Shown: one piece after another, positions 5,408 to 59,657 of the stretch | Layout: each line of letters begins with the position of its first letter | How positions within the stretch are numbered: position 1 is the stretch's first letter | Notes under the pieces: generated by a model | Database searches by the model: none | Seen by the model: only the letters and a program-made list of their open reading frames with translations | Told to the model about the DNA's origin: nothing | From: Arthrobacter sp. Marseille-P9274 | GTDB lineage: Bacteria > Actinomycetota > Actinomycetes > Actinomycetales > Micrococcaceae | Direction: 5' to 3' | Length of the DNA stretch: 64,000 bases | Assembly: GCF_946892675.1 (NCBI RefSeq) | Contig: NZ_CAMPOV010000001.1 | Coordinates: forward strand, 1,214,033 to 1,278,032 | Translations under genes and position numbers: made by a program

Positions 5408-5484
5408 CGGCGGTGCCGGACCGGGAACAGGCCGACGACTGCCTGCCGCCGCGGAACGCGTTGGGCGGTGCCTGAGTCGGCGCC

Positions 5485-6444
5485 CTAGCCGGCGAGCCCG
5501 GGGACGATCAGCAGCACTGTCGGCACCGCCAGCAGCAGGGCTGCGCCGGCCACGACGAGCGTCTGGGCCGCGCTGCCCAGAGGCGCCATCGGCGTGAGCA
5601 GCCGGCGGATCCGGTGGGCCGAGGTGAGGGCCTGGGCCTCTTCGGGGCTCAGCAGTTCACGCGCCGGAGCCCCGACGGCGCCGCCGCCGGGGCGTTCGCC
5701 GCCGGCGACCAGTGCGACCGCGCGGATGAGGGTCTGCCGGTCCGTGGTTTCCAGGGCCGCGTCATCGGCCAGCATCTCGATGAGTTCGTTGACGGCCCGC
5801 TGCGCGAGCTGCGAGGTGGGAAGCCAGGGCAGGGCGGCCCGCCAGGCCGCGAAGGCCCACAGCAGGAGATGGTGCCGCTGGTTCAGGTGTGCCCGCTCGT
5901 GCTGCAGCACGGATTGCAGTTCCGCCGGAGTCAGCAGTTCCATCAGGCCTTCCGAAAGCACGGTGACGGATCCACTGCCGCCGGGCAGGCAGTAGGCGAC
6001 CGGGGCGGGATGGTTGATGACCAGCGTCTTGGGGGAGTCCTTGGCCGGCGAGCTCAACAGGTTCAGCAGCATTCGGTGCCGGTGGCGCTGCTTGGCGATC
6101 CGGTAGTAGGTCAGCAGCAGCGTGAAGACGAGGTGGACGCCTAGCAGGAGGGCAGCGCTCAGGGCGAAGACGTGGATCAGGTCGAGTCCTGGGGCGGGTT
6201 CATAGCTGGCCAGTAGGGCGGTGAGTCCGCGCAGGCCAGCCAGCAGGTTGTCGCCGAGCGGTTCCAGCCCCCAGGTCAGCATCGCGCCGATCATGGAGAG
6301 GCCGCCGGCGAGCGCGATCGCCTGCCAGAGGATCAGCGCCGTCTTGGGCGCCCTCGCCGGCCAGCGGGCGCGCGAGAGCATGACCGGCACCGGCCAAGCC
6401 AGCATTACGGCCAGGGCGGCCAGCAGGTAGGAGGCCCAGAACAC
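5485..6444 (-). CDS. M56 family membrane metallopeptidase (BlaR1-like, no sensor domain)
   Basis: A 319-residue integral membrane zinc protease. Hydrophobic segments lie near residues 1-22, 36-58, 88-112 and 292-316. The HExxH zinc motif appears as HERAH at residues 182-186, and the later NELIEMLADDAA (220-230) supplies the third ligand. BlaR1/MecR1 carry a C-terminal penicillin-binding sensor after this domain; here the protein simply ends, so beta-lactam sensing is not supported. It is encoded 27 bp after the BlaI-type repressor gene, the usual pairing in which the protease leads to repressor inactivation. Because the divergent genes encode cytochrome bd oxidase, a respiratory or envelope signal is a reasonable inference. 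Confidence 0.85.
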   Translation of the reverse strand: MFWASYLLAALAVMLAWPVPVMLSRARWPARAPKTALILWQAIALAGGLSMIGAMLTWGLEPLGDNLLAGLRGLTALLASYEPAPGLDLIHVFALSAALLLGVHLVFTLLLTYYRIAKQRHRHRMLLNLLSSPAKDSPKTLVINHPAPVAYCLPGGSGSVTVLSEGLMELLTPAELQSVLQHERAHLNQRHHLLLWAFAAWRAALPWLPTSQLAQRAVNELIEMLADDAALETTDRQTLIRAVALVAGGERPGGGAVGAPARELLSPEEAQALTSAHRIRRLLTPMAPLGSAAQTLVVAGAALLLAVPTVLLIVPGLAG

Positions 6445-6471
6445 CTCGGTTTATGCGATCCGCACGGAGGC

Positions 6472-6858
6472 TTAGGCCGTCAGCATCTTCCGCAGGGCCT
6501 CGGCTTCCTGGGCCGAGACCGAACCGATGAAGGCGGCGAGCACGGCCTCGCGGTCCCGGGCGGAGCCGAGAACCTCGTGCATGAGCTCCACGGTGTGTGC
6601 CTCGCGGCTCGTCACTGCGCGGTAGCGGTGCGGCCGAATGTCCCGCTCACGCTGGACCAGGCTCTTCTTCTCCAGCCGGGACAGCACCGTGAGCACCGTC
6701 GTCACGGCGAGCTCCTTGCCGTCCCTCGTCGCGCTGCCGCTGTGGGCGAGCCGGTCGCGCAGCTCGTTCGCGGTCAGTGCATTCTCCCCCTGGGGCTGTC
6801 CGTTCTGCTCCCACAGCAGATCCATGACTGCCCGTTCCAGCTCTCCAAGAGTGGCCAT
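6472..6858 (-). CDS. BlaI/MecI/CopY family transcriptional repressor
   Basis: A 128-residue winged-helix repressor. The N-terminus MATLGELERAVMDLLWEQ is the family's first helix. The recognition region is TVLTVLSRLEKKSLVQRERD, followed by the wing (RPHRYRAVTSREAHT) and a C-terminal dimerisation segment. The ATG has GAAGGATG just upstream. It is the first gene of a two-gene operon with the M56 protease. It is divergent from cydA across 160 bp that hold two TTCTAC-N5-GTAGAA palindromes. BlaI proteins bind such dyads as dimers and are removed by proteolysis. Likely targets are its own operon and cydAB-cydDC. Confidence 0.9.
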   Translation of the reverse strand: MATLGELERAVMDLLWEQNGQPQGENALTANELRDRLAHSGSATRDGKELAVTTVLTVLSRLEKKSLVQRERDIRPHRYRAVTSREAHTVELMHEVLGSARDREAVLAAFIGSVSAQEAEALRKMLTA

Positions 6859-6934
6859 TTACATCCTTCATCCGCGCCCAAAAACAACCCCACACCGGCA
6901 GCCTGAGCGCTGCCCGTGTGGCTTCCCTATCCAA

Positions 6935-6963
6935 TTTACAGGCTTTGCCGGATTTGTTCTACA
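6935..6963 (+). promoter_or_regulatory. Predicted cydA promoter
   Basis: TTTACA (6935-6940), a 17-base spacer and TCTACA (6958-6963) form a plausible sigma-70 promoter pointing at cydA. The -10 lies entirely inside the left operator palindrome, so a bound dimer would block polymerase. The second operator would fall in the leader just after the start site. Confidence 0.5.
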
Positions 6964-6998
6964 CTGCGTAGAAGCAAGTTGTTCTACGTTCTGTAGAA
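6957..6998. promoter_or_regulatory. Tandem palindromic operators, probable BlaI-family sites
   Basis: Two perfect dyads, TTCTAC-N5-GTAGAA, occupy 6957-6973 and 6982-6998. Their centres are 25 bp apart, so both face roughly the same side of the helix. They resemble the TACA/TGTA-type dyads bound by BlaI and MecI. They lie between blaI and cydA and overlap the predicted cydA -10. Confidence 0.65.
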
Positions 6999-7018: not shown

Positions 7019-8599
7019 GTGGAAGCCCTCGAAGTCGCCCGGTGGCAGTTCGGCATCACCACGGTTTATCACTTCCTGATGGTGCCGCTGACCATAGGCC
7101 TGGGCCTGACCGTGGCCGTCCTGCAGACGGCCTGGTACCGCACGGGCAAGGACCAGTACCTGCGGATGACCAAGTTCTGGGGCAAGCTGTTCCTGATTAA
7201 CTTCATCATGGGCGTGGCCACGGGCCTGGTGCAGGAATTCCAGTTCGGCATGGCCTGGAGCGAGTACAGCCGCTTCGTTGGTGACGTTTTCGGCGCTCCG
7301 CTGGCACTGGAGTCGCTGCTCGCATTCTTCGTCGAGTCGATCTTCCTGGGTCTGTGGATCTTCGGCTGGAAGCGCCTGCCCAAGGGGATGCACCTGCTGA
7401 GCATCTGGGCAGCCTCGCTGGCCACCATGGGTTCGGCCTACTTCATCCTGGCCGCGAACTCCTGGATGCAGCATCCGGTGGGCGTCGAGATGATCGACGG
7501 CCGGCCGGTCATGGTGGACATCTGGGCGGTGCTGACCAACAACACGCTCCTGGTCGCCTACCCGCACACCCTCTTCGGCGCCTTCTCCGTGGCCGGCGGC
7601 TTCCTGCTCGGCATCGCCTGGTACCACCTGTGGAAGCGCCGCCGGGACGGCACCGACACCGTCGGCGCCGACGGCAAGGTGATGGTGGGCAGCAACCCGG
7701 CCACCGGCCGCGACGCCACCGATCACAAGGTCTGGCTGACGTCGCTGCGGGTCGGCGCCGTCGTCGCCATGGTGTCCTTCGCAGGTGTCTCCCTGACCGG
7801 CGACCTGCAGGCCAAATTGATGTTCGACCAGCAGCCGATGAAGATGGCCGCCGCCGAGGCTGCCTGCCACGACGGCACCGGCTTCTCCGTCCTCTCCGTG
7901 GGCGACCTCGGCTCCAACGACTGCGACGACATGGTTGCGGTGGTAGAACTGCCCGGGCTGCTCTCCTTCCTGGCCAACGGCGACTTCACCACCGAAGTCC
8001 AAGGCATCAACACGCTGATCCCGGAGTACCAGGAACGCTTCGGCACGCACCTGCCCGACAACCCCGTCTACGGCGAGCGCGCCGGCACGGAGATCGACTA
8101 CGTCCCGGTCATGGAGGTCACCTACTGGGGCTTCCGGATCATGATCACCTTCGGCATGCTCGCGGCCGGCGCCGCGCTGGTGGCCCTCTGGATCGCCCGC
8201 AAGGGCACGGTTCCGGAGTCGAAATGGCTGATGCGACTGGCCGTGTTCGGCATCCTGGCGCCGTTCGGGGCGAACTCTGCCGGCTGGATCTTCACCGAGA
8301 TGGGCCGCCAGCCCTTCGTGGTGGCGCCTAACCCGGATCCCGACGGCATCGACAACGTCTTCATGTTCACCGCTGCCGCGGTCTCGCCGGGGGTGTCCCT
8401 CGCCGAACTGGTCTTCTCGCTCTGCGCCTTCGCGCTGGTCTACGGCGTGCTCCTGGTGGTGGAGGTCAAGCTGCTCTTCGCCTACTGCAAGGGCGGCGTG
8501 CCTTCGGCCATGCCCGAAGTGCTGGAGCACCCGGACGGCGGCGCCGGCAGCGGCGGCCAGGGAAAGGACGACGACGATGTCCTCGCCTTCGCGTACTGA
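7019..8599 (+). CDS. cydA: Cytochrome bd ubiquinol oxidase subunit I
   Basis: Haem-carrying subunit of the high-affinity quinol oxidase, 526 residues, in the cytoplasmic membrane. The start VARWQFGITTVYHFLMVPLT holds the conserved N-terminal histidine that ligates haem b595. GRQPF in TEMGRQPFVV is the family's GRQPW-type motif near the haem b558 methionine ligand. The Q loop is short, as in other actinobacteria. About nine hydrophobic helices are visible. The start is GTG 7019, preceded by AAGGGGAG; an ATG at 7017 is out of frame. It is the first gene of cydA-cydB-cydDC and probably repressed through the upstream BlaI-type operators. Confidence 0.96.
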   Translation: MEALEVARWQFGITTVYHFLMVPLTIGLGLTVAVLQTAWYRTGKDQYLRMTKFWGKLFLINFIMGVATGLVQEFQFGMAWSEYSRFVGDVFGAPLALESLLAFFVESIFLGLWIFGWKRLPKGMHLLSIWAASLATMGSAYFILAANSWMQHPVGVEMIDGRPVMVDIWAVLTNNTLLVAYPHTLFGAFSVAGGFLLGIAWYHLWKRRRDGTDTVGADGKVMVGSNPATGRDATDHKVWLTSLRVGAVVAMVSFAGVSLTGDLQAKLMFDQQPMKMAAAEAACHDGTGFSVLSVGDLGSNDCDDMVAVVELPGLLSFLANGDFTTEVQGINTLIPEYQERFGTHLPDNPVYGERAGTEIDYVPVMEVTYWGFRIMITFGMLAAGAALVALWIARKGTVPESKWLMRLAVFGILAPFGANSAGWIFTEMGRQPFVVAPNPDPDGIDNVFMFTAAAVSPGVSLAELVFSLCAFALVYGVLLVVEVKLLFAYCKGGVPSAMPEVLEHPDGGAGSGGQGKDDDDVLAFAY

Positions 8600-8646
8600 T
8601 TCCGCCGGCCGCAACATGCGCAACCTGACCATCTTGGAGAGCTGAC

Positions 8647-9666
8647 ATGGATTTCCTGCCCACTCTGTGGTTCATCATCATCGCCTTCTTCTGGACCGGC
8701 TACCTGTTCCTGGAAGGCTTCGACCTGGGCGTCGGCATGCTGATGCGCGGCTTCGCCCGGAACAACACGGACCGCCGGGTGCTGCTCAACACCGTCGGCC
8801 CGGTCTGGGACGGCAACGAGGTGTGGCTGATCACCGCCGGCGCCGCCACCTTCGCCGCGTTCCCGCACTGGTATGCCTCGCTCTTCGCCGGCCTCTACCT
8901 TCCGCTGGTGCTGGTACTGCTTGCCCTGATCTTCCGGGCCGTGGCGATCGAATACCGCGGCAAGCACGACTCCCCGCGCTGGCGGGCCACCTGGGACTGG
9001 GCCATCGCGCTCGGCTCCTTCGTGGCGGCCTTCGGCGTGGGCGCCATGCTGGCGCTGACCACCACCGGCCTGCCACTGGACGCCAACGGCGACCGCGTGG
9101 GCGGCCCGTTCGCCTGGTTCAACGGCTACGCGGTGCTCGGCGGGCTGGCGGTCGTGCTGTTCTGCCTGGTCCACGCCGCCGCGTTCCTGGTCCTGAAGAC
9201 CGACGGCGACATCCGGGTGCGGGCGCGCAGGCTGCTGCTGCGCTGGCTACCGGTGGCTCTGCTGCCGATGGCGCTGTGGGCGATCCTCGTGGTGCTGGCC
9301 GGCGGGAAGCCCGTGACCTGGGTGACCTTGGCCATGGCCGTGTTCGGCGCCGTCGCGGCGTGGCTGCTGGCCCGGCGGGAGCGGGACGGCCTGAGCTTCG
9401 CCGGACTCGGGATCTTCCTGGTGGCCGGGACCACCACGATCTTCACCGCCGTGTTCCCCAACGTGCTGCCCTCGAGCCTCGATCCGGCGTTCTCGCTGAC
9501 GGTGGAGAACGCGTCCTCGTCCGACTACACGCTGGGCGTGATGAGCGTGATCGGCGCGTTCGGCATTCCCGCCGTGCTGGTCTACCAGGGCTACACGTAC
9601 TGGGTGTTCCGCAAGCGCGTCAGCGCGGAGTCCATCCCCGCCGCCCACGCCGTCGTCCCGCAGTGA
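8647..9666 (+). CDS. cydB: Cytochrome bd ubiquinol oxidase subunit II
   Basis: Second structural subunit of cytochrome bd oxidase, 339 residues, strongly hydrophobic with about eight or nine transmembrane helices. The start MDFLPTLWFIIIAFFWTGYLFLEGFDLGVG is diagnostic (the EGFDLGVGML element is conserved in CydB), as is GPVWDGNEVWLITAGAA. GGAGAG lies just before the ATG. It follows cydA after 47 bp. Its TGA overlaps the GTG of cydDC by four bases, implying translational coupling of the oxidase to the exporter needed for its assembly. Confidence 0.96.
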   Translation: MDFLPTLWFIIIAFFWTGYLFLEGFDLGVGMLMRGFARNNTDRRVLLNTVGPVWDGNEVWLITAGAATFAAFPHWYASLFAGLYLPLVLVLLALIFRAVAIEYRGKHDSPRWRATWDWAIALGSFVAAFGVGAMLALTTTGLPLDANGDRVGGPFAWFNGYAVLGGLAVVLFCLVHAAAFLVLKTDGDIRVRARRLLLRWLPVALLPMALWAILVVLAGGKPVTWVTLAMAVFGAVAAWLLARRERDGLSFAGLGIFLVAGTTTIFTAVFPNVLPSSLDPAFSLTVENASSSDYTLGVMSVIGAFGIPAVLVYQGYTYWVFRKRVSAESIPAAHAVVPQ

Positions 9667-50233: not shown

Positions 50234-53200
50234 TCATTTCTGGTTAAATTTCCTGCCAGTGGTCCGTTCGGCGGCTCCTACCCGGTCCAGATAGGGCGTG
50301 ATGCCGCCCAGGTGCAGCGGCCACCCGGCTCCCATGATCATGCAGAGGTCGATGTCCTCGGGCGCCTGGACGACGCCTTCCTCCAGCATCAGGCCCACTT
50401 CCTCGGCGAGGGCGTCCTGGGTGCGGCGAAGCAGTTCCTCGACCGTGCTGGGTGTCCCGCCGAACTCGAGCAGCGCCAGCGTGGAGGCGGGAACCACCTG
50501 CCGTCCGCCCTCGTCCGTGGACCACAAAGACGTGACGCCGGCGTCGATGAGCCGCTGCAGGTTGGCGGAGACCCGGAACCGGTCGCCGAAGGCCGCGCGG
50601 AGCGACTCCGTGACGTGCTGCGCGACGGGCAGGCCGACCATGGCCAGCAGGTTGAACGGGGTCATGGGGAGGCCCATCGGCTTCAATGCGTTGTCGGCGA
50701 CCTCGGCGGGAGTGCCTTCATCGAACGCCGCGGTGATCTCGCCGAGCAGGCGCAGCAGGACGCGGTTGACCACGAAGGCGGCGGAGTCCTGGACCAGCAC
50801 CGTGGTCTTCTTCAGGGCCTGGCCCAGGGAGAAGGCCGTCGCGAGGACCTCGTCGCTGGTTTTCGGAGCACGGACGATCTCCAGCAGCGGCATCGCGGCG
50901 ACCGGGTTGAAGAAGTGGAAGCCCACCACACGCTCGGGGTGCAGCAGGTCTGCGGCCATGGCGCCCACCGACAGCGACGAGGTGTTGGTGGCAAGGACGC
51001 AGTCGTCGGAGACCACGGCCTCGACTTCGGCGAAGACCTGCTTCTTGACGGCGAGGTCCTCGAACACCGCCTCGATCACAAAGTCCGCATCGGCGAAGGC
51101 CTCCTTGGAGACCGAGCCGGTGACCAGGGACCTGGTGCGGTTGGCCGCATCCGGCGCCAGGCGGTTCTTCGCGAGCAGTTTGTCCACTTCGGCCCGCACA
51201 TACGCCACGCCCTTGTCCACTTTGGCCTGGTCCACATCCGTCATGACCACGGGCACTTTGAGCTGGCGGGCGAAGAGCAGTGCGAGCTGGCTCGCCATCA
51301 GCCCGGCTCCCACGATCCCGACCTTGGCCACCGGCCGTGCCAGGGCCTTGTCCGGGGCGCCGGCCGGCCGCTTGGCGCGCTTCTGCACGAGTTCCAGGAA
51401 TGCGTGGACGGTGTCGCGGAACTGCGGGGTCTGCATCAGCGCGGCCAGGGCATCGATTTCCAATGCCGCGGATTCGGCCTGCGTCTTTCCGCGGCCCGCC
51501 GCCATCACCTCGAGCAGCTTGGCGGGGGCGGGCGCGGCACCGCCCGTCCGGGCACCAACGAAGGAGCGGGCCGCGGAAATGGCCTGCTCCCAGTCGTCCT
51601 CGGAGGCTGCGGCCTTCTGCGCGCGGCGCTCCGCGACTGTGGCGCGCTCGGCGTCCTCGGCCAGAATGCGGCCGGCCCAGGCGAGGGACTGCTCGAGGAA
51701 GTCCGCCGGCTCGAAGCATGCATCGGCGATGCCCAGCTCGTACGCCTCCGGGCCCCTGAGCGCCCTGTTGTTGCCCAAGGCGTTCTCGATCATGACCTTC
51801 AGCGCGTTCCGCGGACCGATGAGCCGCGGCAGCCGGTAGACGCCGCCCCAGCCGGGGATCAGGCCGAGGAAGGCCTCGGGCAGCGAGATCCCGTTGGCGG
51901 CCACCGATACGGTGCGGTAGTCGGCGGCCAGCGCGATCTCCAGTCCGCCGCCCATCGCGGCACCGTTGATGAAGGCGAACGTCGGCACACCCAGGCCGGA
52001 CAATGTGCCGTAAACGTCGTGGCCGAGCCGGGCCATCTGCCGGCCGTCCTCCTCGGTGGCCAGCCTTCCCACCGCTGACAGGTCCGCGCCGGCCGCAAGG
52101 TAGTAGGGCTTGCCGGTGACGGCGACAGCCGCCAGCGAGCCCGCTGCCGTGCGGGCCTTCAGCTGCTCGAAGAGGGCGCCAAGCTCCACCAGCGAGTTCG
52201 GGCCGAGGGTTGTCGGCCTGCGGTGGTCGAGGTCATTGTCCAGGGTCACCAGGGCGAGCGTCCCGGCCCCTGGCAATTCGACGTCGCGGACGTAGGCATG
52301 GGTCACCGTCTCGTCCGGGAACTTGGCGGCCAGGTCTGCGTAGTCTGCCGGGATCATGCTTGCTCCTTCTTGGGGGCGGACGGGGTCGAGCGGGCATACT
52401 CGGTGCGGGTTCTCCCAGATCACAGTGCCGCCCATACCCAGGCCGACGCACATGGTGGTCAGCCCGTACCGGACGTCCGGGTCCTCCTCGAACTGCCGGG
52501 CTAGCTGCGTCATCAGCCGCACCCCGGATGCAGCCAGCGGATGTCCGACGGCGATCGCCCCGCCGTAGCGGTTCACGCGCGGGTCGTCGTCGGCCAGTCC
52601 GAAGTGGTCCAGGAAAGAGAGCACCTGCACGGCGAACGCCTCGTTGATCTCGAACAGGCCGATGTCCGCTATGTCCAGCCCGGCCAGCTTGAGCGCTTTC
52701 GCGGTCGCAGGGATCGGGCCGATGCCCATGACCTCTGGATCGACACCGGCGAACGCGTAGGAAACCAGGCGCATCCTGGCCGGCAGGCCCAGCTCGGCCG
52801 CTGTGTCGCCCGACGCCAGGACGGCCGCGGTGGCGCCGTCGGTGAGCCCGGCGGCATTGCCCGCGGTGACCCGCCCGTGGGGACGGAACGGCGTGCGCAG
52901 CCCGGCCAGGTCTGCCACCGTGGTGCCGGGACGCGGAGGCTCGTCGGCGCGGTGCAGCGCCCAGCCTTCGCCCGGCTTCCGGCCCGCCACCGGGACAAGA
53001 TCCTGCTGTATCGCGCCCGCCTCGTAGGCCGCCGCCAGCCTGGCCTGGCTGGCCGCCGCGTAGGCGTCGGCGCGCTCCTTGGTGATGCCGGGCGAGCGGT
53101 CGTGGAGGGTCTCGGCAGTGCTGCCCATGTTCAGGGCGTCCGGGTGAACGAGCCTCTCGGCGGCGAAGCGCGGATTCGGCTCCGCACCCTGGCCCATCGG

Positions 53201-53602
53201 GTGGTTGCCCATGTGCTCCACGCCGCCGGCGATGACGACGTCGTAGGCACCAAAGGCGATGCCGCCCGCCGTCGTTGTTACCGCCGTCATGGCCCCGGCG
53301 CACATGCGGTCCACGGCAAAGCCGGGAACGGAGCGGGGGAGGCCGGCAAGCAGGGCGGCGCTCCGGCCGATGGTCAGGCCCTGGTCTCCGGTTTGGGTGG
53401 TGGCGGCAACGGCGACCTCATCGATGCGCTCGGGCGGGAGGGACGGATTGCGGCGCAGCAGTTCGCGGATGCACTTTACCACCAGGTCGTCGGCCCGGCT
53501 GCCGGCGTGGATGCCCTTGTCACCCGCCTTGCCGAACGGGGTGCGGACGCCGTCGACGAAGACGACGTCGCGCAGGGCGCGGGCAGGCAGGGCAGGATTC
53601 AC
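50234..53602 (-). CDS. Fused acetyl-CoA acyltransferase (FadA) and 3-hydroxyacyl-CoA dehydrogenase/enoyl-CoA hydratase (FadB)
   Basis: One uninterrupted frame of 1122 residues encodes the full fatty-acid beta-oxidation complex. Residues 1-402 are a thiolase: VDRMCAGAMTAVTTTAGG holds the catalytic Cys; YGGAIAVGHPLAASGVRL and TTMCVGLGMGGTVIWENP the His and second Cys. After 13 linker residues comes a FadB part (from Met 416, ATG at 52357): a crotonase domain with AAMGGGLEIALAADYRTVS, then GIVGAGLMASQLALLFARQL (NAD site) and VGFHFFNPVAAMPLLEIV. AAGAAGGAG precedes the inner ATG, so FadB may also be made separately. In relatives I recall two genes. The GTG start at 53602 has GAGGAG upstream. Confidence 0.85.
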   Translation of the reverse strand: MNPALPARALRDVVFVDGVRTPFGKAGDKGIHAGSRADDLVVKCIRELLRRNPSLPPERIDEVAVAATTQTGDQGLTIGRSAALLAGLPRSVPGFAVDRMCAGAMTAVTTTAGGIAFGAYDVVIAGGVEHMGNHPMGQGAEPNPRFAAERLVHPDALNMGSTAETLHDRSPGITKERADAYAAASQARLAAAYEAGAIQQDLVPVAGRKPGEGWALHRADEPPRPGTTVADLAGLRTPFRPHGRVTAGNAAGLTDGATAAVLASGDTAAELGLPARMRLVSYAFAGVDPEVMGIGPIPATAKALKLAGLDIADIGLFEINEAFAVQVLSFLDHFGLADDDPRVNRYGGAIAVGHPLAASGVRLMTQLARQFEEDPDVRYGLTTMCVGLGMGGTVIWENPHRVCPLDPVRPQEGASMIPADYADLAAKFPDETVTHAYVRDVELPGAGTLALVTLDNDLDHRRPTTLGPNSLVELGALFEQLKARTAAGSLAAVAVTGKPYYLAAGADLSAVGRLATEEDGRQMARLGHDVYGTLSGLGVPTFAFINGAAMGGGLEIALAADYRTVSVAANGISLPEAFLGLIPGWGGVYRLPRLIGPRNALKVMIENALGNNRALRGPEAYELGIADACFEPADFLEQSLAWAGRILAEDAERATVAERRAQKAAASEDDWEQAISAARSFVGARTGGAAPAPAKLLEVMAAGRGKTQAESAALEIDALAALMQTPQFRDTVHAFLELVQKRAKRPAGAPDKALARPVAKVGIVGAGLMASQLALLFARQLKVPVVMTDVDQAKVDKGVAYVRAEVDKLLAKNRLAPDAANRTRSLVTGSVSKEAFADADFVIEAVFEDLAVKKQVFAEVEAVVSDDCVLATNTSSLSVGAMAADLLHPERVVGFHFFNPVAAMPLLEIVRAPKTSDEVLATAFSLGQALKKTTVLVQDSAAFVVNRVLLRLLGEITAAFDEGTPAEVADNALKPMGLPMTPFNLLAMVGLPVAQHVTESLRAAFGDRFRVSANLQRLIDAGVTSLWSTDEGGRQVVPASTLALLEFGGTPSTVEELLRRTQDALAEEVGLMLEEGVVQAPEDIDLCMIMGAGWPLHLGGITPYLDRVGAAERTTGRKFNQK

Positions 53603-53638
53603 CGGGGCTCCTCGGGACGGCAGCGTGACGCCCCTCAT

Positions 53639-53654
53639 GTTACCCATGGGTAAC
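53639..53654. promoter_or_regulatory. 16-bp perfect palindrome upstream of the fadA-fadB gene
   Basis: GTTACCCATGGGTAAC is fully self-complementary and lies 37 bases before the GTG start. Its size and position fit an operator for a TetR-type regulator of fatty-acid degradation. No such regulator is encoded in the window. Confidence 0.5.
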
Positions 53655-53700
53655 TTAGGCGGCAAGCCTCATACGAGCGGCGGCCCGGCGGTCGGAGATG

Positions 53701-55029
53701 CTAGGCGGCGCTTCCCCGGTGGTTCCCCTTGCCCTTCGGCTCCGGCAGCGGGTCCGGATCGAGGAAGGCCTTGGTGATGACAGGAACGGCGAGCTCCAGC
53801 TGCCAGGGGCGGGCGCCCAGTCCGCGCAGGGCCGCGGCGATGGATTCCTCGGTGACGGCGGCCGGCGGACGCCACGCCACGCGGCGCAGGAAGTCCGGGG
53901 TGAGCAGGTTCTCCACCGGCATGTCCAGCTTCTCCGCTAAGGCGGCGAGCCGGGGCCGGGCGGTCTGCAGGCGCGCTGCCGCCGCCGGGTCCTTTTCCGC
54001 CCAGACCCGGGGCGGCGGGGGAGCGTTGGTCGGCAGCTGCAGTTCGGGCAGCTCCTTCAACTGGCGGGCGGCGCTGATGCAGCGGAGCCAGCGCGGGGCC
54101 TCCCGCTGGGCGGCCCGCCCGTGGAAGCCGTTGACCTCCAGCAGCTGCGGCACGGTCGTGGGCATCGCCCGGGCCGCGGCCACGATGGCGGAGTCCGGGA
54201 TGAGGCGGCCGGGGGCGATGTCCCGCTTCTCGGCCAGCTGCTCGCGTTCCTGCCACAGCTCCCGGACCGCAGCCAGCTGCCGCCGGTCGCGGATCTGGTG
54301 GAGTCCCGAGGTCTTCCGCCACGGGTCCGGGCGCGGCGGGGCCGGCGGCGTCTTGCGCAGGGCCTCGAACTCCTGCTCGGCAAAGCGCAGCTTGTCCTGC
54401 TGCGTGAGCAGCTCGACCATGGCCTCGCGGAGTTCGATCAGCACCTCGACGTCCAGGGCGGCGTAGCGGAGCCAGGGTTCGGGCAGCGGGCGGGTGGACC
54501 AGTCCGCCGCGGAATGCTCCTTGGCCAGCGTGAAGCCCAGCAGGTTCTCGATGACGGCGGCCAGGCCGACGCGCGGGAGCCCGGCCAGTCGGGCGGCGAG
54601 CTCCGTGTCGAAGAGCCGGTCCGGCCACATGCCAAGCTCGGAGAGGCAGGGCAGGTCCTGGGTGGCCGCGTGCAGGATCCACTCGGCGCCGCGGATCGCA
54701 TCGTTGATGACCACCAGGTCGTCGAAGGGCTCGGGGTCGATCAGCCAGGTGCCCGATCCTTCGCGGCGGAGCTGCACGAGGAAGGCGCGCTGGCCGTAGC
54801 GGAAGCCGGACGCGCGCTCGGCGTCCACGGCCACCGGTCCCCGTCCGCCGGCCAGCGCGGCCGCGGCACGCGCCAGCCCGTTGGCGGTGGTGATGACGGG
54901 GGGCACGCCCTCTCGGGGCGCGGTCAGCTCGACCAGTTCGGGGGCCTGCTCCGGGGCCGCTTCCGCGGGTGGTGCACCCATAGCGGGGCGCGACGGTCCG
55001 GCGGAAGAGTCCGAAGTCAAGAAAGTCAT
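53701..55029 (-). CDS. HRDC domain ribonuclease D-like 3'-5' exonuclease
   Basis: A 442-residue protein with a DEDD exonuclease domain and C-terminal HRDC domains, as in RNase D and mycobacterial Rv2681. GPVAVDAERASGFRYGQRAFL holds the first Asp-x-Glu pair. LFDTELAARLAGLPRVGLAA (second Asp) and EPWLRYAALDVEVLIELRE (third motif, Tyr-x-x-x-Asp) follow. An HRDC segment appears as TSGLHQIRDRRQLAAVRELW, and a second lies near the end. A role in stable-RNA 3' processing is likely. AAAGGA precedes the ATG. It is 23 bp downstream of DUF3000, a conserved pairing. Confidence 0.88.
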   Translation of the reverse strand: MTFLTSDSSAGPSRPAMGAPPAEAAPEQAPELVELTAPREGVPPVITTANGLARAAAALAGGRGPVAVDAERASGFRYGQRAFLVQLRREGSGTWLIDPEPFDDLVVINDAIRGAEWILHAATQDLPCLSELGMWPDRLFDTELAARLAGLPRVGLAAVIENLLGFTLAKEHSAADWSTRPLPEPWLRYAALDVEVLIELREAMVELLTQQDKLRFAEQEFEALRKTPPAPPRPDPWRKTSGLHQIRDRRQLAAVRELWQEREQLAEKRDIAPGRLIPDSAIVAAARAMPTTVPQLLEVNGFHGRAAQREAPRWLRCISAARQLKELPELQLPTNAPPPPRVWAEKDPAAAARLQTARPRLAALAEKLDMPVENLLTPDFLRRVAWRPPAAVTEESIAAALRGLGARPWQLELAVPVITKAFLDPDPLPEPKGKGNHRGSAA

Positions 55030-55052
55030 GGTCCTTTCAGTCTACTGCGCAG

Positions 55053-55697
55053 TTAATTGCGGCGGCGATTCGGCAGCGGGGCCACGCCGTCCGGCAGCGG
55101 GGGCAGGCCGGCGAAGGTGCAGACCATGTCGGACCAGGCCTCGAGGTGGGCCTGGACCTGGGCCGAGTCGGGCGTCCAGGAGGCGCGCAGCTCGATGTCG
55201 ATGGCGTCCTGCTGGCCCGCGAGGGTTCCGAAGCTCTCCGAGAGGATCCGCGTCGCCGTTCCGCCGGCGTTGCGGTATCCGGCGTGGTGGACGTCCAGCG
55301 CCTCCACCAGCCAGGTCCAGGCGACCGAACCCAGCAGCGAGTCATTACCCATCTCGGCATCGAGCTGGGCACGGATGTAGGTCACGATGCGGAAGGTGCC
55401 GTCCCAGAGTTCAGATCCCTCGGCATCGTAGAGCAGGACGAACCGGCCGGTGGCCAGTTCCGTCTCGCCGGAATTGCCGACGGCGGCGAGGGCCGGGCCG
55501 TGCAGCGGCCGGCCGGCGGGAGCCGCGGGCTGGACGACTTCGGCGCCAATGGCCACGGCGAACGGGGCGAGGCGCGAGGGAGCGGGCAGCTCTTCGAGGC
55601 GGAGCTCGCTGCGGCACTGTGCCCGGCGCAACGCGGCCAGGGCGGTCATGAAGTCCGCAGGTACCGCGGACAGATCACCAATCGCACTCACACCCAC
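55053..55697 (-). CDS. DUF3000 domain-containing protein
   Basis: A 214-residue protein of an actinobacterial family (Rv2680-like) that sits upstream of the RNase D-like gene in many genomes. Conserved stretches are FMTALAALRRAQCRSELRLE, RFVLLYDAEGSELWDGTFRI and SVAWTWLVEALDVHHAGYRN. There is no signal peptide or membrane segment. Function is unknown; the constant neighbourhood suggests a link to RNA metabolism. The start is GTG 55697, with GTG 55691 as a possible alternative. Confidence 0.88.
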   Translation of the reverse strand: MGVSAIGDLSAVPADFMTALAALRRAQCRSELRLEELPAPSRLAPFAVAIGAEVVQPAAPAGRPLHGPALAAVGNSGETELATGRFVLLYDAEGSELWDGTFRIVTYIRAQLDAEMGNDSLLGSVAWTWLVEALDVHHAGYRNAGGTATRILSESFGTLAGQQDAIDIELRASWTPDSAQVQAHLEAWSDMVCTFAGLPPLPDGVAPLPNRRRN

Positions 55698-55752
55698 AGG
55701 CTAATTCGCGGCACTGACAGCCGGGAACGGGACGCGCCGGAGCCATGAATCG

Positions 55753-56835
55753 TTATGCTCCTGTGCTGTCCCGGACCTCGGCGCGGATGGCCTCGGCGAA
55801 CGCATCCACGTCGGCTTCCGATGTATCGAACGAGCACATCCAGCGGACCTCGCCGCGGGCGGCGTCCCAGTCGTAGAACCGGAACTTCTTGCGGATCCGG
55901 TCCGCCGCGCCCGCCGGCAGCGTGGCGAACACGGCATTGGCCTGCGTCTCCTGGGTGGGCCGGACGCCGTCGATCCCGGCCACCGCCGCGCGAAGCCGGG
56001 CCGCCATCGCGTTCGCATGCGCCGCCGAGCGTAGCCACAGGCCGTCCTCCAGCAGCGCCACGAACTGCGCCGAGATGAAGCGCATCTTCGAGGCCAGCTG
56101 CATGTTCATCTTGCGCAGGTACGGCAGGCCGGCTGCCGCCTCCGGGTTCAGCACCACGACGCATTCGCCGAAGAGCAGGCCGTTCTTGGTGCCGCCGAGG
56201 GAGACGATGTCCACCCCCGCGTCCGTCGTGAACTCGCGCAGCGGAACGTCCAGGGCCGCGGCCGCGTTGGCCAGCCGCGCCCCGTCCATGTGCAGCTTCA
56301 TCCCGTGACCGTGGGCGTGGTCGGCGATCGCCCTGACCTCCTCGATGCTGTACAGCGTCCCGAGCTCCGTGCTCTGGGTGAGGGACACCGCCAGCGGCTG
56401 GGCACGGTGCTCGTCGCCCCAGCCCCAGGCCTCGCGGTCGATCAGCTCGGGCGTCAGCTTGCCGTCACTGGTGGGCACGGGCAGCAGTTTCATCCCGCCG
56501 ACCCGTTCGGGGGCGCCGTTCTCGTCCACGTTAATGTGCGCGGTGGCCGCGCAGATGACGGCTCCCCAGCGCGGCAGCATCGACTGCAGGCTCAGCACGT
56601 TCGCGCCGGTGCCGTTGAACACCGGGTACGCGACCGACTGCGGGCCGAAATGCGTTTGGATGAGTTCCTGCAGCCGCGCCGTATAGTCGTCCTCGCCGTA
56701 CGAAACCTGGTGGCCGCCGTTGGCGTGGGCCAGCGCCGTCAGGATTTCGGGATGCACCCCCGAATAGTTGTCCGAGGCGAAGCCCCGTGCGGCGGTGTCG
56801 TGCAGGGGAGCGGCGAGCAGGGAGGAATCGGTCAC
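55753..56835 (-). CDS. Threonine aldolase/beta-eliminating lyase family PLP enzyme
   Basis: A 360-residue fold-type I PLP enzyme. FASDNYSGVHPEILTALA and YGEDDYTARLQELIQTHFG are the family N-terminus. MKLHMDGARLANAA holds the cofactor-binding Asp and Arg. DIVSLGGTKNGLLFGE contains the Schiff-base lysine. Relatives cleave threonine or allo-threonine to glycine and acetaldehyde, but several family members act on other beta-hydroxy amino acids. It is the third gene of an operon with an SDR and a DUF6421 protein, which makes a specialised substrate likely. The start codon is GTG. Confidence 0.88.
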   Translation of the reverse strand: MTDSSLLAAPLHDTAARGFASDNYSGVHPEILTALAHANGGHQVSYGEDDYTARLQELIQTHFGPQSVAYPVFNGTGANVLSLQSMLPRWGAVICAATAHINVDENGAPERVGGMKLLPVPTSDGKLTPELIDREAWGWGDEHRAQPLAVSLTQSTELGTLYSIEEVRAIADHAHGHGMKLHMDGARLANAAAALDVPLREFTTDAGVDIVSLGGTKNGLLFGECVVVLNPEAAAGLPYLRKMNMQLASKMRFISAQFVALLEDGLWLRSAAHANAMAARLRAAVAGIDGVRPTQETQANAVFATLPAGAADRIRKKFRFYDWDAARGEVRWMCSFDTSEADVDAFAEAIRAEVRDSTGA

Positions 56836-56877
56836 GATGGCAATGTCCTTCTCGGAAGAGGTATGGGGCGGATGCGC

Positions 56878-57645
56878 TCACACGAGCGGAATCCTGTGTC
56901 CGTTCAGATCGGCGGCGGGCGTGCCGAACAAATTCTTCACGGCCTCGGCCAGCTGTGCAACGTCGGTGAAGCCGTCGAACGCCTTCTCCGGTTCCGCGCG
57001 GCGCATGCCGTCATCCACCAGCGCCTTGACCACCAGTACGACGGCGGCGGCCCGGGCGGGCGCGGGGCGTCCGGTGTCCTTTTCGGCGGCTTTCCGCTCC
57101 CGCTCGAAGCCGTCCGCGAGGGACTGCATCCAGCTCTCGGCCGCCGCCTTGGCCGCCGCGTAGTTCGCCCCGCCGGCGGTGGCGGAGCCCACGGCCGTCG
57201 AGGAGACGATGGCGGCCCGGCCGCACTTCGACGAAGCCAGCTGCGGGTAGAAGGCGCGGGTCGTGTTGCGCAGGGTCGTGACCAGGTTGCGGTGGAGGAA
57301 GTCCCAGTCCTCGTCGCTCTGGCCCGTGATGCCTTTGCCGCCGCGCCAGCCGCCGACCAGATGGATGAGGCCGTCGGCGCCGCCGCGGGCCAGGACATCC
57401 GCGGCCAGCCCCTCGACGGCCACGCGGTCGGCGAGGTCGCAGACGAACGTGGCCACGCCGTCGTCGTCGCCGTACGCCTGCCGAAGGCGCTCCGCATTGC
57501 TGCCCACGGCGATGACCCCCGCCCCGGCCCGGCGCAGCGCCGCGGTGACGGCCTTGCCCGAGGCGCCCGAGGCGCCTGCGACCACCACGCGCAGGCCCGT
57601 CGGGATGTCCGCGCCTTCTGGTTCCTCCGGCTGGTTGCCGCTCAC
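56878..57645 (-). CDS. Short-chain dehydrogenase/reductase
   Basis: A 255-residue NAD(P)-dependent oxidoreductase. The dinucleotide motif is RVVVAGASGASGKAVTAALR (Gly-x-x-Gly-x-x-Gly spacing). HLVGGWRGG replaces the usual NNAG strand, and the catalytic Ser-Tyr-Lys set is AIVSSTAVGSATAGGANYAA followed by AKAA. It is translationally coupled to the DUF6421 gene (four-base overlap, GTG start at 57645) and 42 bp from the aldolase gene. The three-gene set recurs, as far as I recall, in other actinobacteria, so it probably acts on the same compound. Confidence 0.87.
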   Translation of the reverse strand: MSGNQPEEPEGADIPTGLRVVVAGASGASGKAVTAALRRAGAGVIAVGSNAERLRQAYGDDDGVATFVCDLADRVAVEGLAADVLARGGADGLIHLVGGWRGGKGITGQSDEDWDFLHRNLVTTLRNTTRAFYPQLASSKCGRAAIVSSTAVGSATAGGANYAAAKAAAESWMQSLADGFERERKAAEKDTGRPAPARAAAVVLVVKALVDDGMRRAEPEKAFDGFTDVAQLAEAVKNLFGTPAADLNGHRIPLV

Positions 57646-59021
57646 GCGGCGGCTCCGGTGATGCCGGAGGTCGATTCAATGACGGATTTCATCTTCTTCC
57701 CCAGTGCCTCGTAGAACATGGACAGTGGGAACTCATCATCCATGACCTGGTCGGTAATTTCACGCAGAGGCGACGTCAGCGGCAGCGCGGCGGGCCCCTT
57801 GGCCCAGACGGAGGCCGGATTCGGCGTCAGCGTGCCCGTCAGCATTTCGTAGGCGGCCAGCCAGTGCGCCAGCTTCGGGCGGTCGATCGATCGCCAGTAC
57901 AGGTCGTCGATCAGCTGACCAAGGGCGACGACGGCGTCCGCGACGTGCGCCCAGTCGATGCTCAGCTTGGAATCGGTCCAGTGCAGCACATGGTGCTGGT
58001 GCAGCCAGGCGAACAGCAGCTGGCCGCCGAGGCCGTCGTAGTTGCGGACCCGGCTTCCGGTGATGGCGAAGCGGAAGATCCGGTCGAAGATCACCGCGTA
58101 CTGGACAAGCCGGGCGTGGACACGGATGTCCGGCGACGCCTGGACGTCGTGCTCGAGCCGCACCGATTCGCGGAAGGCCGTCAGGTCGCAGCGCAGTTCC
58201 TCTAGCGAGTAGAGGAAGTAGGGCATCCGCTGCTTGATCATGAACGGGTCGAACGGCAGGTCGCCGCGCATGTGGGTGCGGTCGTGGATGAGGTCCCACA
58301 TGACGAAGGTTTCCTCGGCGAGCTGCTGGTCCTGGAGGAGCGCGGCCGCCTCCTCGGGCAGCTCGAGCGAAGTGGTCCGGGCGGCGGAGCTGACAACGCG
58401 GCGGAACCGGGCGGCCTCGCGGTCGGCGAAGATGGCGCCCCACGTGAAGGCAGGGGTCTCGCGGACGGCCACGGTTTCCGGGAAGAGCACGGCGGAGTTC
58501 GTGTCGTAGCCGGCCGTGAAGTCGAGGAAGCGGATCGGGACGAAGAGCTTGTTGGAGTAGTCCCCGGCCTCGAGGTCGTCGATGAAATCCGGCCAGATGA
58601 CTTCGATCAGCACGGCCTCGACCAGCCGGTCCGGGCTGCCGTTCTGCGTGTACATCGGGAAGACCACCAGATGGACCAGGCCGTCGCGGCGCTGCTGCTG
58701 CGGCTGGAACGCCATGAGGGAATCCAGGAAATCCGGAACACCGAAGCCCTCGCCGGCCCACCTCCGGAAGTCCTGCTGCAGCAGGCGGAGGTAGTCGCCG
58801 TCGTACTCCAGGAACGGCGCGAGCTCGGCGATGGCGGCGACAATCGTGTCCACTTGCCGGCCGGCCTCGGCGTGATGGGCAGGATCAGGGATGGACCCAT
58901 CGCGCAGCTGGCGCGGGCGCAGCGCGGAGGCAGCCGCCTTGAGCCGGAGCCAGGCCGGATGCTCGGACAGACCGGAGTTGCTGCGCTGTTCGGCGCCGGA
59001 CGGCGTGATGGCCAGAGTCAT
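57642..59021 (-). CDS. DUF6421 family protein
   Basis: A 459-residue soluble protein of an uncharacterised family. Recognisable blocks are LHP-type N-terminal text, DYLRLLQQDFRRWAGEGFG, FPMYTQNGSPDRLVEAVLIE, LFVPIRFLDFTAGYDTNSAV and the highly polar MWDLIHDRTHMRGDLPFDPF. The HDRTH segment with LEHDVQASPDIRVHARL and LHQHHVLHW offers many conserved-looking His, Asp and Glu residues that could form a metal site; this is my inference. There are no membrane segments. It is the first gene of the operon with SDR and threonine aldolase. AGGGGGG lies before the ATG, and a 9-bp inverted repeat sits 84 bases upstream. Confidence 0.75.
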   Translation of the reverse strand: MTLAITPSGAEQRSNSGLSEHPAWLRLKAAASALRPRQLRDGSIPDPAHHAEAGRQVDTIVAAIAELAPFLEYDGDYLRLLQQDFRRWAGEGFGVPDFLDSLMAFQPQQQRRDGLVHLVVFPMYTQNGSPDRLVEAVLIEVIWPDFIDDLEAGDYSNKLFVPIRFLDFTAGYDTNSAVLFPETVAVRETPAFTWGAIFADREAARFRRVVSSAARTTSLELPEEAAALLQDQQLAEETFVMWDLIHDRTHMRGDLPFDPFMIKQRMPYFLYSLEELRCDLTAFRESVRLEHDVQASPDIRVHARLVQYAVIFDRIFRFAITGSRVRNYDGLGGQLLFAWLHQHHVLHWTDSKLSIDWAHVADAVVALGQLIDDLYWRSIDRPKLAHWLAAYEMLTGTLTPNPASVWAKGPAALPLTSPLREITDQVMDDEFPLSMFYEALGKKMKSVIESTSGITGAAA

Positions 59022-59104
59022 GATGGAGCCCCCTGTTCTGCGGCACGGCCGGGCCGTGCGGACGGATCTGCACTATGGCTCGAGCGTAGCAACGAAAAAG
59101 CTCA

Positions 59105-59133
59105 GCTAATCAGAAAGCGGGCGACTGATTAGC
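59105..59133. repeat. Perfect inverted repeat upstream of the DUF6421 operon
   Basis: GCTAATCAG (59105-59113) and CTGATTAGC (59125-59133) flank 11 bases. The stem is unusually AT-rich for this genome. It could be an operator for the DUF6421 operon or, with the T-rich run that follows on the minus strand, a terminator for msrB. Confidence 0.55.
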
Positions 59134-59219
59134 ATTTCTCACGCTCACGATGGCCGCGCCGGGCGGCAGGCCCAGCGCGGCTCGCTCTGGCGGCGACGGG
59201 CGCGGGTTCCGGTCCGCCG

Positions 59220-59657
59220 CTAGCCGGCGGCGGTGTTTTCCTCCAGCGTCAGCGAGACGGAATTGATGCAGAAGCGCTGGTCGGTCGGTGTCTGGTAGCC
59301 CTCGCCCTCGAAGACGTGGCCCAGGTGCGAGTTGCAGTTGGCGCAGCGGACCTCGATCCGCTCCATTCCCAGGGTCGAATCGTGCAGGTAACGGACCTTG
59401 CCCTCCGCCAGCGGCGCCCAGAAGGACGGCCAGCCGCAGTGCGAGTCGAACTTTTCCTTGCTGGTGAACAGTTCCGCGCCGCAGGCCCGGCACTTGTAGA
59501 CGCCGTTGGTATGGGTGTCCCAGTATTCGCCGGTGTAGGGCCGCTCAGTGCCGGCCTGGCGCAGCACGTGGTATTCCTCCGGCGTCAATTCGCGGCGCCA
59601 CTCGTCCTCGGACTTGGTGACGGGGAAGGCCTTTTCAGTGTTGTCCACGTTGGTCAT
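59220..59657 (-). CDS. msrB: Peptide-methionine (R)-S-oxide reductase
   Basis: Repairs methionine R-sulfoxide in proteins. The 145-residue protein has the zinc-binding pairs YKCRACGAELF and VRCANCNSHLGH, the active-site wall FDSHCGWPSFWAPL and the catalytic Cys in TDQRFCINSVSL. The ATG has AAAGGA next to it. It is downstream of a small stress-like gene (14 bp gap), so it is probably made from the same transcript. Confidence 0.95.
   Translation of the reverse strand: MTNVDNTEKAFPVTKSEDEWRRELTPEEYHVLRQAGTERPYTGEYWDTHTNGVYKCRACGAELFTSKEKFDSHCGWPSFWAPLAEGKVRYLHDSTLGMERIEVRCANCNSHLGHVFEGEGYQTPTDQRFCINSVSLTLEENTAAG

Follow-up and report, generated by a model that had tools for sequence, protein, structure and literature searches.

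A conserved operon of Arthrobacter combines a PolE-type DUF6421 protein with a candidate pterin reductase and a threonine aldolase-type enzyme

A stretch of 64,000 nucleotides from Arthrobacter sp. Marseille-P9274 (contig NZ_CAMPOV010000001.1, positions 1,214,033 to 1,278,032; hereafter the window) carries at 55753-59021, on the minus strand, three genes for a protein of the DUF6421 family (PF19985), a short-chain dehydrogenase/reductase (SDR) and a pyridoxal 5'-phosphate (PLP)-dependent enzyme of the low-specificity L-threonine aldolase type. The key finding of our analysis is that the DUF6421 protein is very probably an iron- and pterin-dependent amino acid oxidase of the PolE type, encoded in a conserved operon whose SDR may recharge the pterin and whose aldolase may cleave the oxidized amino acid. 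DUF6421 has been known as an Fe/pterin family since 2025; what appears to be new is its place in one operon with an aldolase and a reductase that may be dedicated to it.

The DUF6421 gene (57642-59021; 459 amino acids) overlaps the SDR gene (56878-57645; 255 amino acids) by 4 bp (57642-57645), and 42 bp (56836-56877) separate the latter from the aldolase gene (55753-56835; 360 amino acids). All three open reading frames (ORFs) are intact on the minus strand, as a first-pass annotation made from the sequence alone had described them, and Pfam agrees with the assignments: PF19985 with E 4.5e-239 (793.9 bits against a cut-off of 25), PF00106 adh_short with E 1.3e-18 for the SDR and PF01212 Beta_elim_lyase with E 6.2e-50 for the aldolase. 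A search of NCBIfam with the DUF6421 protein returned no family at E values up to 0.001.

The DUF6421 protein and its iron site

The first-pass annotation regarded DUF6421 as uncharacterised and its step as unassigned. This view has been overtaken by the description of a family member, PolE of the polyoxin pathway, as an Fe/pterin-dependent amino acid oxidase (PMC12614342). According to the main text of that report, PolE is an L-isoleucine desaturase that strictly depends on Fe2+, O2 and tetrahydrobiopterin (BH4), and addition of quinonoid dihydropteridine reductase (QDPR) raises its activity about 2-3-fold; of the mutants in its HExxH-xn-E motif, the soluble ones showed no detectable activity and one was insoluble (PMC12614342). 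Fe/pterin enzymes reported earlier were the aromatic amino acid hydroxylases, mostly eukaryotic, and the authors proposed some 10,000 relatives of PolE as a new family of such enzymes (PMC12614342). They further stated in general terms that many relatives adjoin other putative amino acid-modifying genes, and suggested that co-localised genes form pathways to unusual amino acids, while the words 'short-chain', 'threonine' and 'aldolase' are absent from the main text (PMC12614342).

The window protein matches the published motif H-[ED]-x-x-H-X(21-23)-E. Its two predicted histidine ligands lie in HDRTH (residues 246-250; 58272-58286, minus strand), and the putative third ligand, E274 (58200-58202, minus strand), follows H250 after 23 residues, within the published spacing (PMC12614342). 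H246, H250 and E274 were invariant in alignments of 9 and 35 rows, and E275 was invariant in the 35 rows. The suggestion of the first-pass annotation that a metal site might surround HDRTH is supported by these alignments. The AlphaFold model (predicted local distance difference test score, pLDDT, 86.8) superimposed on apo SnPolE (9j2e) with Z 30.8 and a root-mean-square deviation of 3.7 over 366 residues. The SnPolE structures were matched by the single window sequence at E ~1e-9 and by the 35-row profile, which included one PolE-like row, at E 2.3e-88; our literature search for these structures found no paper describing them.

The model also resembled dipeptidyl peptidase III (DPP III; 6eom) with Z 17.8 and a deviation of 4.0 over 364 residues, while the remaining folds listed stayed at Z 5.1 or below. 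A DPP III-type peptidase was nevertheless rejected because, despite the shared fold, the HExxGH site and the catalytic histidine of DPP III are not conserved (main text of PMC12614342) and the window protein has HDRTH.

The likeness to PolE (PDB 9j2e series; 9j2r is the SnPolE complex with L-isoleucine) thus comprises the Pfam family, the H-[DE]-x-x-H-X23-E site and the DPP III-like fold, and extends to two of the residues mutated in SnPolE, F140 and Y280, which by alignment correspond to the invariant F180 and Y328. In contrast, pocket residues differ, a third mutated residue, Y157, corresponding to I197, and the window protein is about 22-24% identical to a PolE-like relative and about 70-85 residues longer. 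The acidic residues D167, E202 and D243 also differ from those of the PolE-like protein of locus L035. The two systems also differ in gene content, the window operon having its own SDR and aldolase where the polyoxin pathway has PolF. Judged from sequence, the window protein appears to keep the iron site within a pocket unlike that of PolE, and its catalytic activity is assigned by analogy. We consider its function as an Fe/pterin oxidase highly probable.

In a 65-row tree of DUF6421 proteins the window copy grouped with that of Arthrobacter mangrovi (100/99). The branch of the PolE-like row was very long and fell outside, its exact position being unsure. A short PolE-like protein with an HEYHH site is encoded in locus L035 (5956-12965 region) near a gene for a nonribosomal peptide synthetase (NRPS), the domains of which are of the condensation, AMP-binding, methyltransferase and carrier types. 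At the other extreme are long DUF6421 ORFs of about 700 amino acids (L204, L187, L034, L184 and L191); an extra N-terminal domain of about 260 residues was present in five of the six scanned. This domain, which the window protein lacks, resembles DUF4350 (above the cut-off) and ThuA/GATase-like folds.

Conservation and neighbourhood of the trio

At the level of the phylum, PF19985 was found in 15 of 296 genomes; the class had it in 104 of 394 (35 of 138 genera) and the family in 97 of 149. The named loci, limited to the best 80 out of 591 confirmed ones and leaning to Arthrobacter and its kin, all had an SDR gene directly behind the DUF6421 gene. The aldolase gene started within 1.3 kb in 62 of them; it lay 2.5-5.1 kb away in 8 and was not found in the 4.5-6 kb downstream in 10. 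Co-occurrence of the three families, on which the first-pass annotation had staked its proposal, is thus well supported, and the trio proved to be a conserved unit rather than a rare adjacency.

When all locus sources were pooled (122 loci; limits of 700 bp for the SDR and 3 kb for the aldolase, with the broken aldolases of L024 and L120 scored as present), the SDR was counted in 116 and the aldolase in 103; L034 missed the SDR limit by 14 bp and does have the gene. In L184 and L198 the aldolase gene lies next to that for DUF6421 and there is no SDR gene, and L202, L205 and L035 have neither partner. The DUF6421 protein of L205 (5477-8323; 33% identity) is encoded on a Nocardia plasmid, on its own, near a tryptophan 2,3-dioxygenase gene.

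A second complete trio is present on another contig of the same genome (L003), with the aldolase at 3697-4791, the SDR at 4788-5546 and DUF6421 at 5543-6988, all on the minus strand; its proteins are ~70% (DUF6421), ~54% (SDR) and ~70% (aldolase) identical to those of the window. In the window, a gene for MsrB (59220-59657) lies upstream of the trio and genes for DUF3000 and an RNase D-like protein lie downstream. Genes for MsrB, DUF3000 and RNase D, together with the SDR and the aldolase, accompany DUF6421 on the same strand in 50 of the 80 named loci (window span 53701-59657). The trio therefore occupies a stable chromosomal neighbourhood in the window's family.

The three proteins could be inherited together and still catalyse separate reactions, the aldolase for example supplying glycine and the other two taking part in unrelated redox chemistry. 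Low-specificity threonine aldolases are useful standing alone, and the aldolase gene is absent or distant in part of the loci. Against this stand the overlap or near-overlap of the genes, the aldolase that adjoins DUF6421 without an SDR in L184, and the occurrence of an entire second operon in the same genome and of another on a plasmid. We therefore regard separate reactions as very improbable.

The SDR as a candidate pterin reductase

The SDR had been called atypical, and this is correct: LVGGW replaces the usual motif, with VGGWRGG (residues 97-103; 57337-57357, minus strand) occupying the position of NNAG in ordinary SDRs. VGGW was present in 127 of 127 operon SDRs of a first set (the window and loci L003 and L020-L145, minus L035, which has no SDR) and in 19 of 20 distant ones from loci L183-L206, which were checked for GGW separately. 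The catalytic Tyr162 and Lys166, which form YAAAK in the window (57148-57162, minus strand), were likewise found in all 127. The position of the catalytic serine was more variable, with Ser in 83, Ala in 38 and Thr in 6 of the 127 proteins; the window SDR has Ser149, and Ala occurs in all eight loci of one genus of the same class (g8).

From the Arthrobacter genome, 30 of the 48 places matching PF13561 were taken as a background, and none of the 29 that could be aligned had GGW; L177 and L182 were gapped at this position and most others had NNAG or a relative of it. At the DNA level, a pattern for HLVGGWR[GA] matched 89 of the 149 family genomes, namely 89 of the 97 with DUF6421 versus none of the 52 without it, and its reversed control gave no match in any row. 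Of the 94 matches, 93 shared the strand of DUF6421 and followed it at a distance of 262-437 bp. The exception started near a contig edge, at base 206, and its genome has DUF6421 at base 103 of a different contig. Chance adjacency of the trio was rejected on this confinement of the motif to DUF6421-positive genomes, on the SDR in all 80 named loci and on the second complete trio of the same genome.

GGW-x-GG is also common to the QDPRs of human, worm and slime mould, where it falls in the same alignment column as the operon motif. Human QDPR can also be aligned with the operon SDR over a distal stretch, P-E-x-x-F-x-x-x-T. The window SDR thus resembles QDPR in being a Rossmann-type SDR with YxxxK, with GGW-x-GG instead of NNAG and with a similar distal stretch. 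With a QDPR profile, the median score was 18.9 for operon SDRs versus 7.4 for the other SDRs of the genome. Since the steadier partner of the SDR is DUF6421, not the aldolase, and since its signature resembles that of dihydropteridine reductase, we prefer the role of a cofactor recycler, to which we give an even chance of being correct.

Several observations count against this preference. By overall sequence the window SDR is closer to ordinary SDRs than to QDPR: a profile of operon SDRs scored YdfG at 73.5, FabG at 69.6, YciK at 67.9, HdhA at 58.7, EntA at 50.3 and human QDPR at 46.0, placing the latter sixth of nine proteins, and with the QDPR profile 5 of the 30 other genome SDRs as well as E. 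coli HdhA (24.5) outranked the window SDR (19.5). A phmmer search of the PDB with the 47-residue motif region yielded no QDPR at E values up to 10. The window SDR retains the catalytic serine, unlike the three QDPRs, which by alignment have Ala there. One distant SDR of the 20, that of L196, lacks GGW. Moreover, in 20 class-wide regions, hand-picked for diversity from the 104 DUF6421-positive class genomes and in some cases ending at contig edges, the aldolase was present in 19 and the SDR in 17, making the SDR the partner more often absent.

The SDR of L196 is about 52% identical to that designated SDR204, despite having no GGW. The model of the window SDR (pLDDT 96.7) has an SDR fold; the matches shown in one fold search were tied at Z 27.2-28.2, ordinary SDRs led in a second, and QDPR was not among the 50 matches listed in either, which weighs on neither side. 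Membership of the QDPR family was rejected, because the window SDR has neither the Ala at the serine position nor QDPR as its closest relative by sequence. The SDR may nonetheless work like QDPR without belonging to its family.

Alternatively, the SDR could act on carbon, either in the redox chemistry of a beta-hydroxy or beta-keto amino acid or by reducing an aldehyde released by the aldolase. The complete Ser-Tyr-Lys set of the window SDR fits this, as does its overall proximity to classical SDRs, of which YdfG, the highest-scoring of the nine tested, is annotated as a 3-hydroxy acid dehydrogenase. The loci that keep the aldolase and lack the SDR (L184 and L198) are compatible with either role. 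On the other hand, the SDR accompanies DUF6421 without an aldolase within 3 kb in 16 of the 122 pooled loci, and the catalytic serine is variable while GGW is nearly constant. Overall similarity, as far as such comparisons go, does not appear to decide between cofactor recycling and beta-keto reduction, and weighing these points we consider action on carbon rather unlikely.

The pterin background of these genomes is mixed. The usual pterin client, the aromatic amino acid hydroxylase (PF00351), was absent from all 149 family genomes, while pterin-4a-carbinolamine dehydratase (PF01329) occurred in 70 of the 97 DUF6421-positive genomes versus 21 of the 52 negative ones (Fisher p 2e-4, a value confounded by kinship). 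With PF00351 absent and PF01329 common in DUF6421-positive genomes, it is plausible that some enzyme outside the aromatic hydroxylases uses a pterin here. Two results fit recycling of a pterin less well: PF01329 is missing from 27 of the 97 DUF6421-positive genomes, and no 6-pyruvoyltetrahydropterin synthase (PTPS; PF01242) was found in the Arthrobacter genome, which makes BH4 synthesis by the animal route unlikely.

The aldolase, the substrate and the proposed pathway

Residues 16-352 of the window aldolase match the L-threonine aldolase 5vye with E 4.6e-79, the best match among solved structures, followed by the L-threonine aldolases 7w0i, 7yvr and 9l9g and the aldolase 1v72 (E up to 1e-69). 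It is thus a full-length counterpart of low-specificity L-threonine aldolases. It differs from the GntG and LtaE types in falling below both NCBIfam cut-offs, with 81.4 bits against 230 for GntG (NF041359), the best model, and 41.5 against 312 for the LtaE-type PRK10534. K217 in GGTKNG (56185-56187, minus strand), which from the fold type we take to be the PLP-binding lysine, was Lys in 99 rows and a gap in 12 (n=111). Low-specificity L-threonine aldolases reversibly interconvert beta-hydroxy amino acids with glycine and an aldehyde. The presence of such an enzyme therefore indicates a beta-hydroxy amino acid, and it probably acts on the product of the DUF6421 protein. From a reductase and an aldolase, the first-pass annotation had deduced a beta-hydroxy or beta-keto amino acid; the former part agrees with the aldolase, whereas an SDR acting as beta-keto reductase is less well supported.

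We propose that the operon may be an oxidative amino acid cleavage module. The DUF6421 protein would bind Fe(II) through H246, H250 and E274 and use O2 and a reduced pterin to oxidize a free L-amino acid, most likely by hydroxylation at C-beta; its family, site and fold are established, its activity and substrate inferred. The SDR would then regenerate the pterin, with NAD(P)H as reductant for the quinonoid dihydropterin that leaves this step, much as QDPR serves the phenylalanine hydroxylase of animals. Finally, the aldolase, whose family is clear and whose direction is presumed, would split the beta-hydroxy amino acid into glycine and an aldehyde or ketone. In guanitoxin biosynthesis (GntD/GntG) and in carnitine biosynthesis from trimethyllysine, beta-hydroxylation is likewise followed by PLP-dependent aldol cleavage to glycine and an aldehyde. 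The hydroxylases of those pathways are 2-oxoglutarate dependent, whereas the window operon would use a pterin enzyme of another fold and a dedicated reductase for the same logic of hydroxylation followed by retro-aldol cleavage.

Three points tell against this scheme. Beta-hydroxylation is a guess from the aldolase, because PolE desaturates rather than hydroxylates its substrate. Of the 122 pooled loci, 16 have an SDR and no aldolase within 3 kb, although in four of them one lies 4.5-5.1 kb away. Finally, no aldehyde-processing gene was seen regularly beside the trio, so that the module stops short of a carbon sink. The complete model, with both carbon steps right and the SDR serving the oxidase, is accordingly tentative, and we rate its chances as slightly less than even.

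Hints at a substrate come from side loci. Next to the second trio in L003, a divergent gene (7882-9447) encodes an amino acid permease, which recurs in L024, L114, L120 and L141, and a polar amino acid ABC transporter is found in L085, L107 and L108. The best NCBIfam model of the permease, NF008094, which we take to be PRK10836 (LysP), gave 639 bits, below its cut-off of 735. For the binding protein, the best transport model was the lysine/arginine/ornithine subfamily (117.9 of 256) and the top model overall that of a kinase fused to a binding domain (220 of 900), both below the cut-off; its best PDB match was the ancestral binding protein AncQR. Among these side loci, L003 and L141 have an aldolase that can be read for most of its length, L024 and L120 have a broken one, and in the downstream sequence of L085, L107, L108 and L114 none was found.

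Two plasmids carry larger assemblies. In L203 (10525-15286), from a Paenarthrobacter plasmid, the trio is accompanied by genes for a permease, a binding protein, a LysR-type regulator, an agmatinase-family ureohydrolase (above two cut-offs), amino acid ABC components and a PLP enzyme, for which all models were below their cut-offs (PdxR first, then the enduracididine enzyme MppQ, with GntC also listed). In L204 (1-10097), from a plasmid of Tsukamurella tyrosinosolvens, genes for an amine oxidase, a stress protein, an APC permease, gabT, gabD and YdcF precede the trio; L200 is a near copy of this locus, and in L184, which belongs to a different family, a gabD with 58% identity lies close to DUF6421. 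Lrp/AsnC-type regulators occur near the operon in L020, L034, L197, L198 and L201. In L199 (8132-9505), an ORF for a flavin adenine dinucleotide-dependent oxidoreductase starts 55 bp past the aldolase ORF; its best models, an aminophosphonate oxidoreductase and L-pipecolate oxidase, are far below their cut-offs. Among ten ORFs family-searched in loci of Microbacteriaceae and of another group of the class (f5, presumably Streptomyces), no shared catabolic link was evident: they comprised GDPD, transglutaminase-like, GNAT, glyoxalase-type, flavin reductase, thioredoxin, SDR and DNA-alkylation repair proteins and two with no call over the cut-off.

The transporter and catabolic side genes hint at imported, perhaps basic, amino acids as substrates of some copies, and lysine or arginine is our leading guess for some relatives, which does not fix the substrate of the window copy. 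Two facts speak against extending this guess: the hints are absent from the window's own clade, where the neighbours are only MsrB, DUF3000 and RNase D, and PolE is specific for isoleucine, not a basic amino acid (main text of PMC12614342). We consider a basic amino acid as the general substrate doubtful. Equally doubtful is a new breakdown route in which lysine (or arginine or methylated lysine) would be hydroxylated at C3 by the SDR-recharged pterin iron enzyme, after which the aldolase would release glycine together with an aldehyde bearing an omega-amino or guanidino group.

The DUF6421 protein might instead desaturate or otherwise modify an amino acid for biosynthesis, with the aldolase working in the synthetic direction or on another intermediate, so that an unusual amino acid results. 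PolE, the characterised member, is biosynthetic, and pathways to unusual amino acids are what its authors proposed for co-localised genes (main text of PMC12614342); the gene for the PolE-like protein of L035 has the NRPS gene described above in its vicinity. This proposal sits poorly with the conserved chromosomal neighbourhood of the trio in the window's family and with the import systems that accompany the side copies, and no biosynthetic cluster genes were seen beside the trio in the few loci whose neighbours were family-searched. We therefore consider a biosynthetic role improbable and retain oxidative cleavage as the preferred reading.

Scans gave four terminator-like sites compared with 2.2 in shuffled sequences, which is no excess, and no sigma-70-like promoter (0.3 in shuffles). 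Elsewhere in the window, at 50234-53665 on the minus strand, thiolase and FadB-type (ECH, 3HCDH) domains are continuous in one frame of 1143 amino acids, which could be a fusion or a matter of assembly.

The first-pass annotation saw in the operon a candidate for an undescribed pathway, and this stands within the literature searched, which held no description of an operon that joins DUF6421 to an aldolase and a possibly dedicated reductase; most subscription papers were outside its reach, making this a weak negative. If the basic amino acid route were true, 4-aminobutanal would feed the catabolism of gamma-aminobutyric acid and 3-guanidinopropanal would feed a ureohydrolase. Taken together, our results suggest that DUF6421 widens the range of Fe/pterin enzymes, here in an operon that is common, stable on the chromosome and equipped with a bacterial reductase that may be dedicated to the pterin. 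The search for PTPS in the Arthrobacter genome gave no match, so that the pterin used by these bacteria becomes a question in itself. Reconstituting a single reaction would show what a very large enzyme family does in the cell, and might disclose a new pathway of amino acid catabolism.

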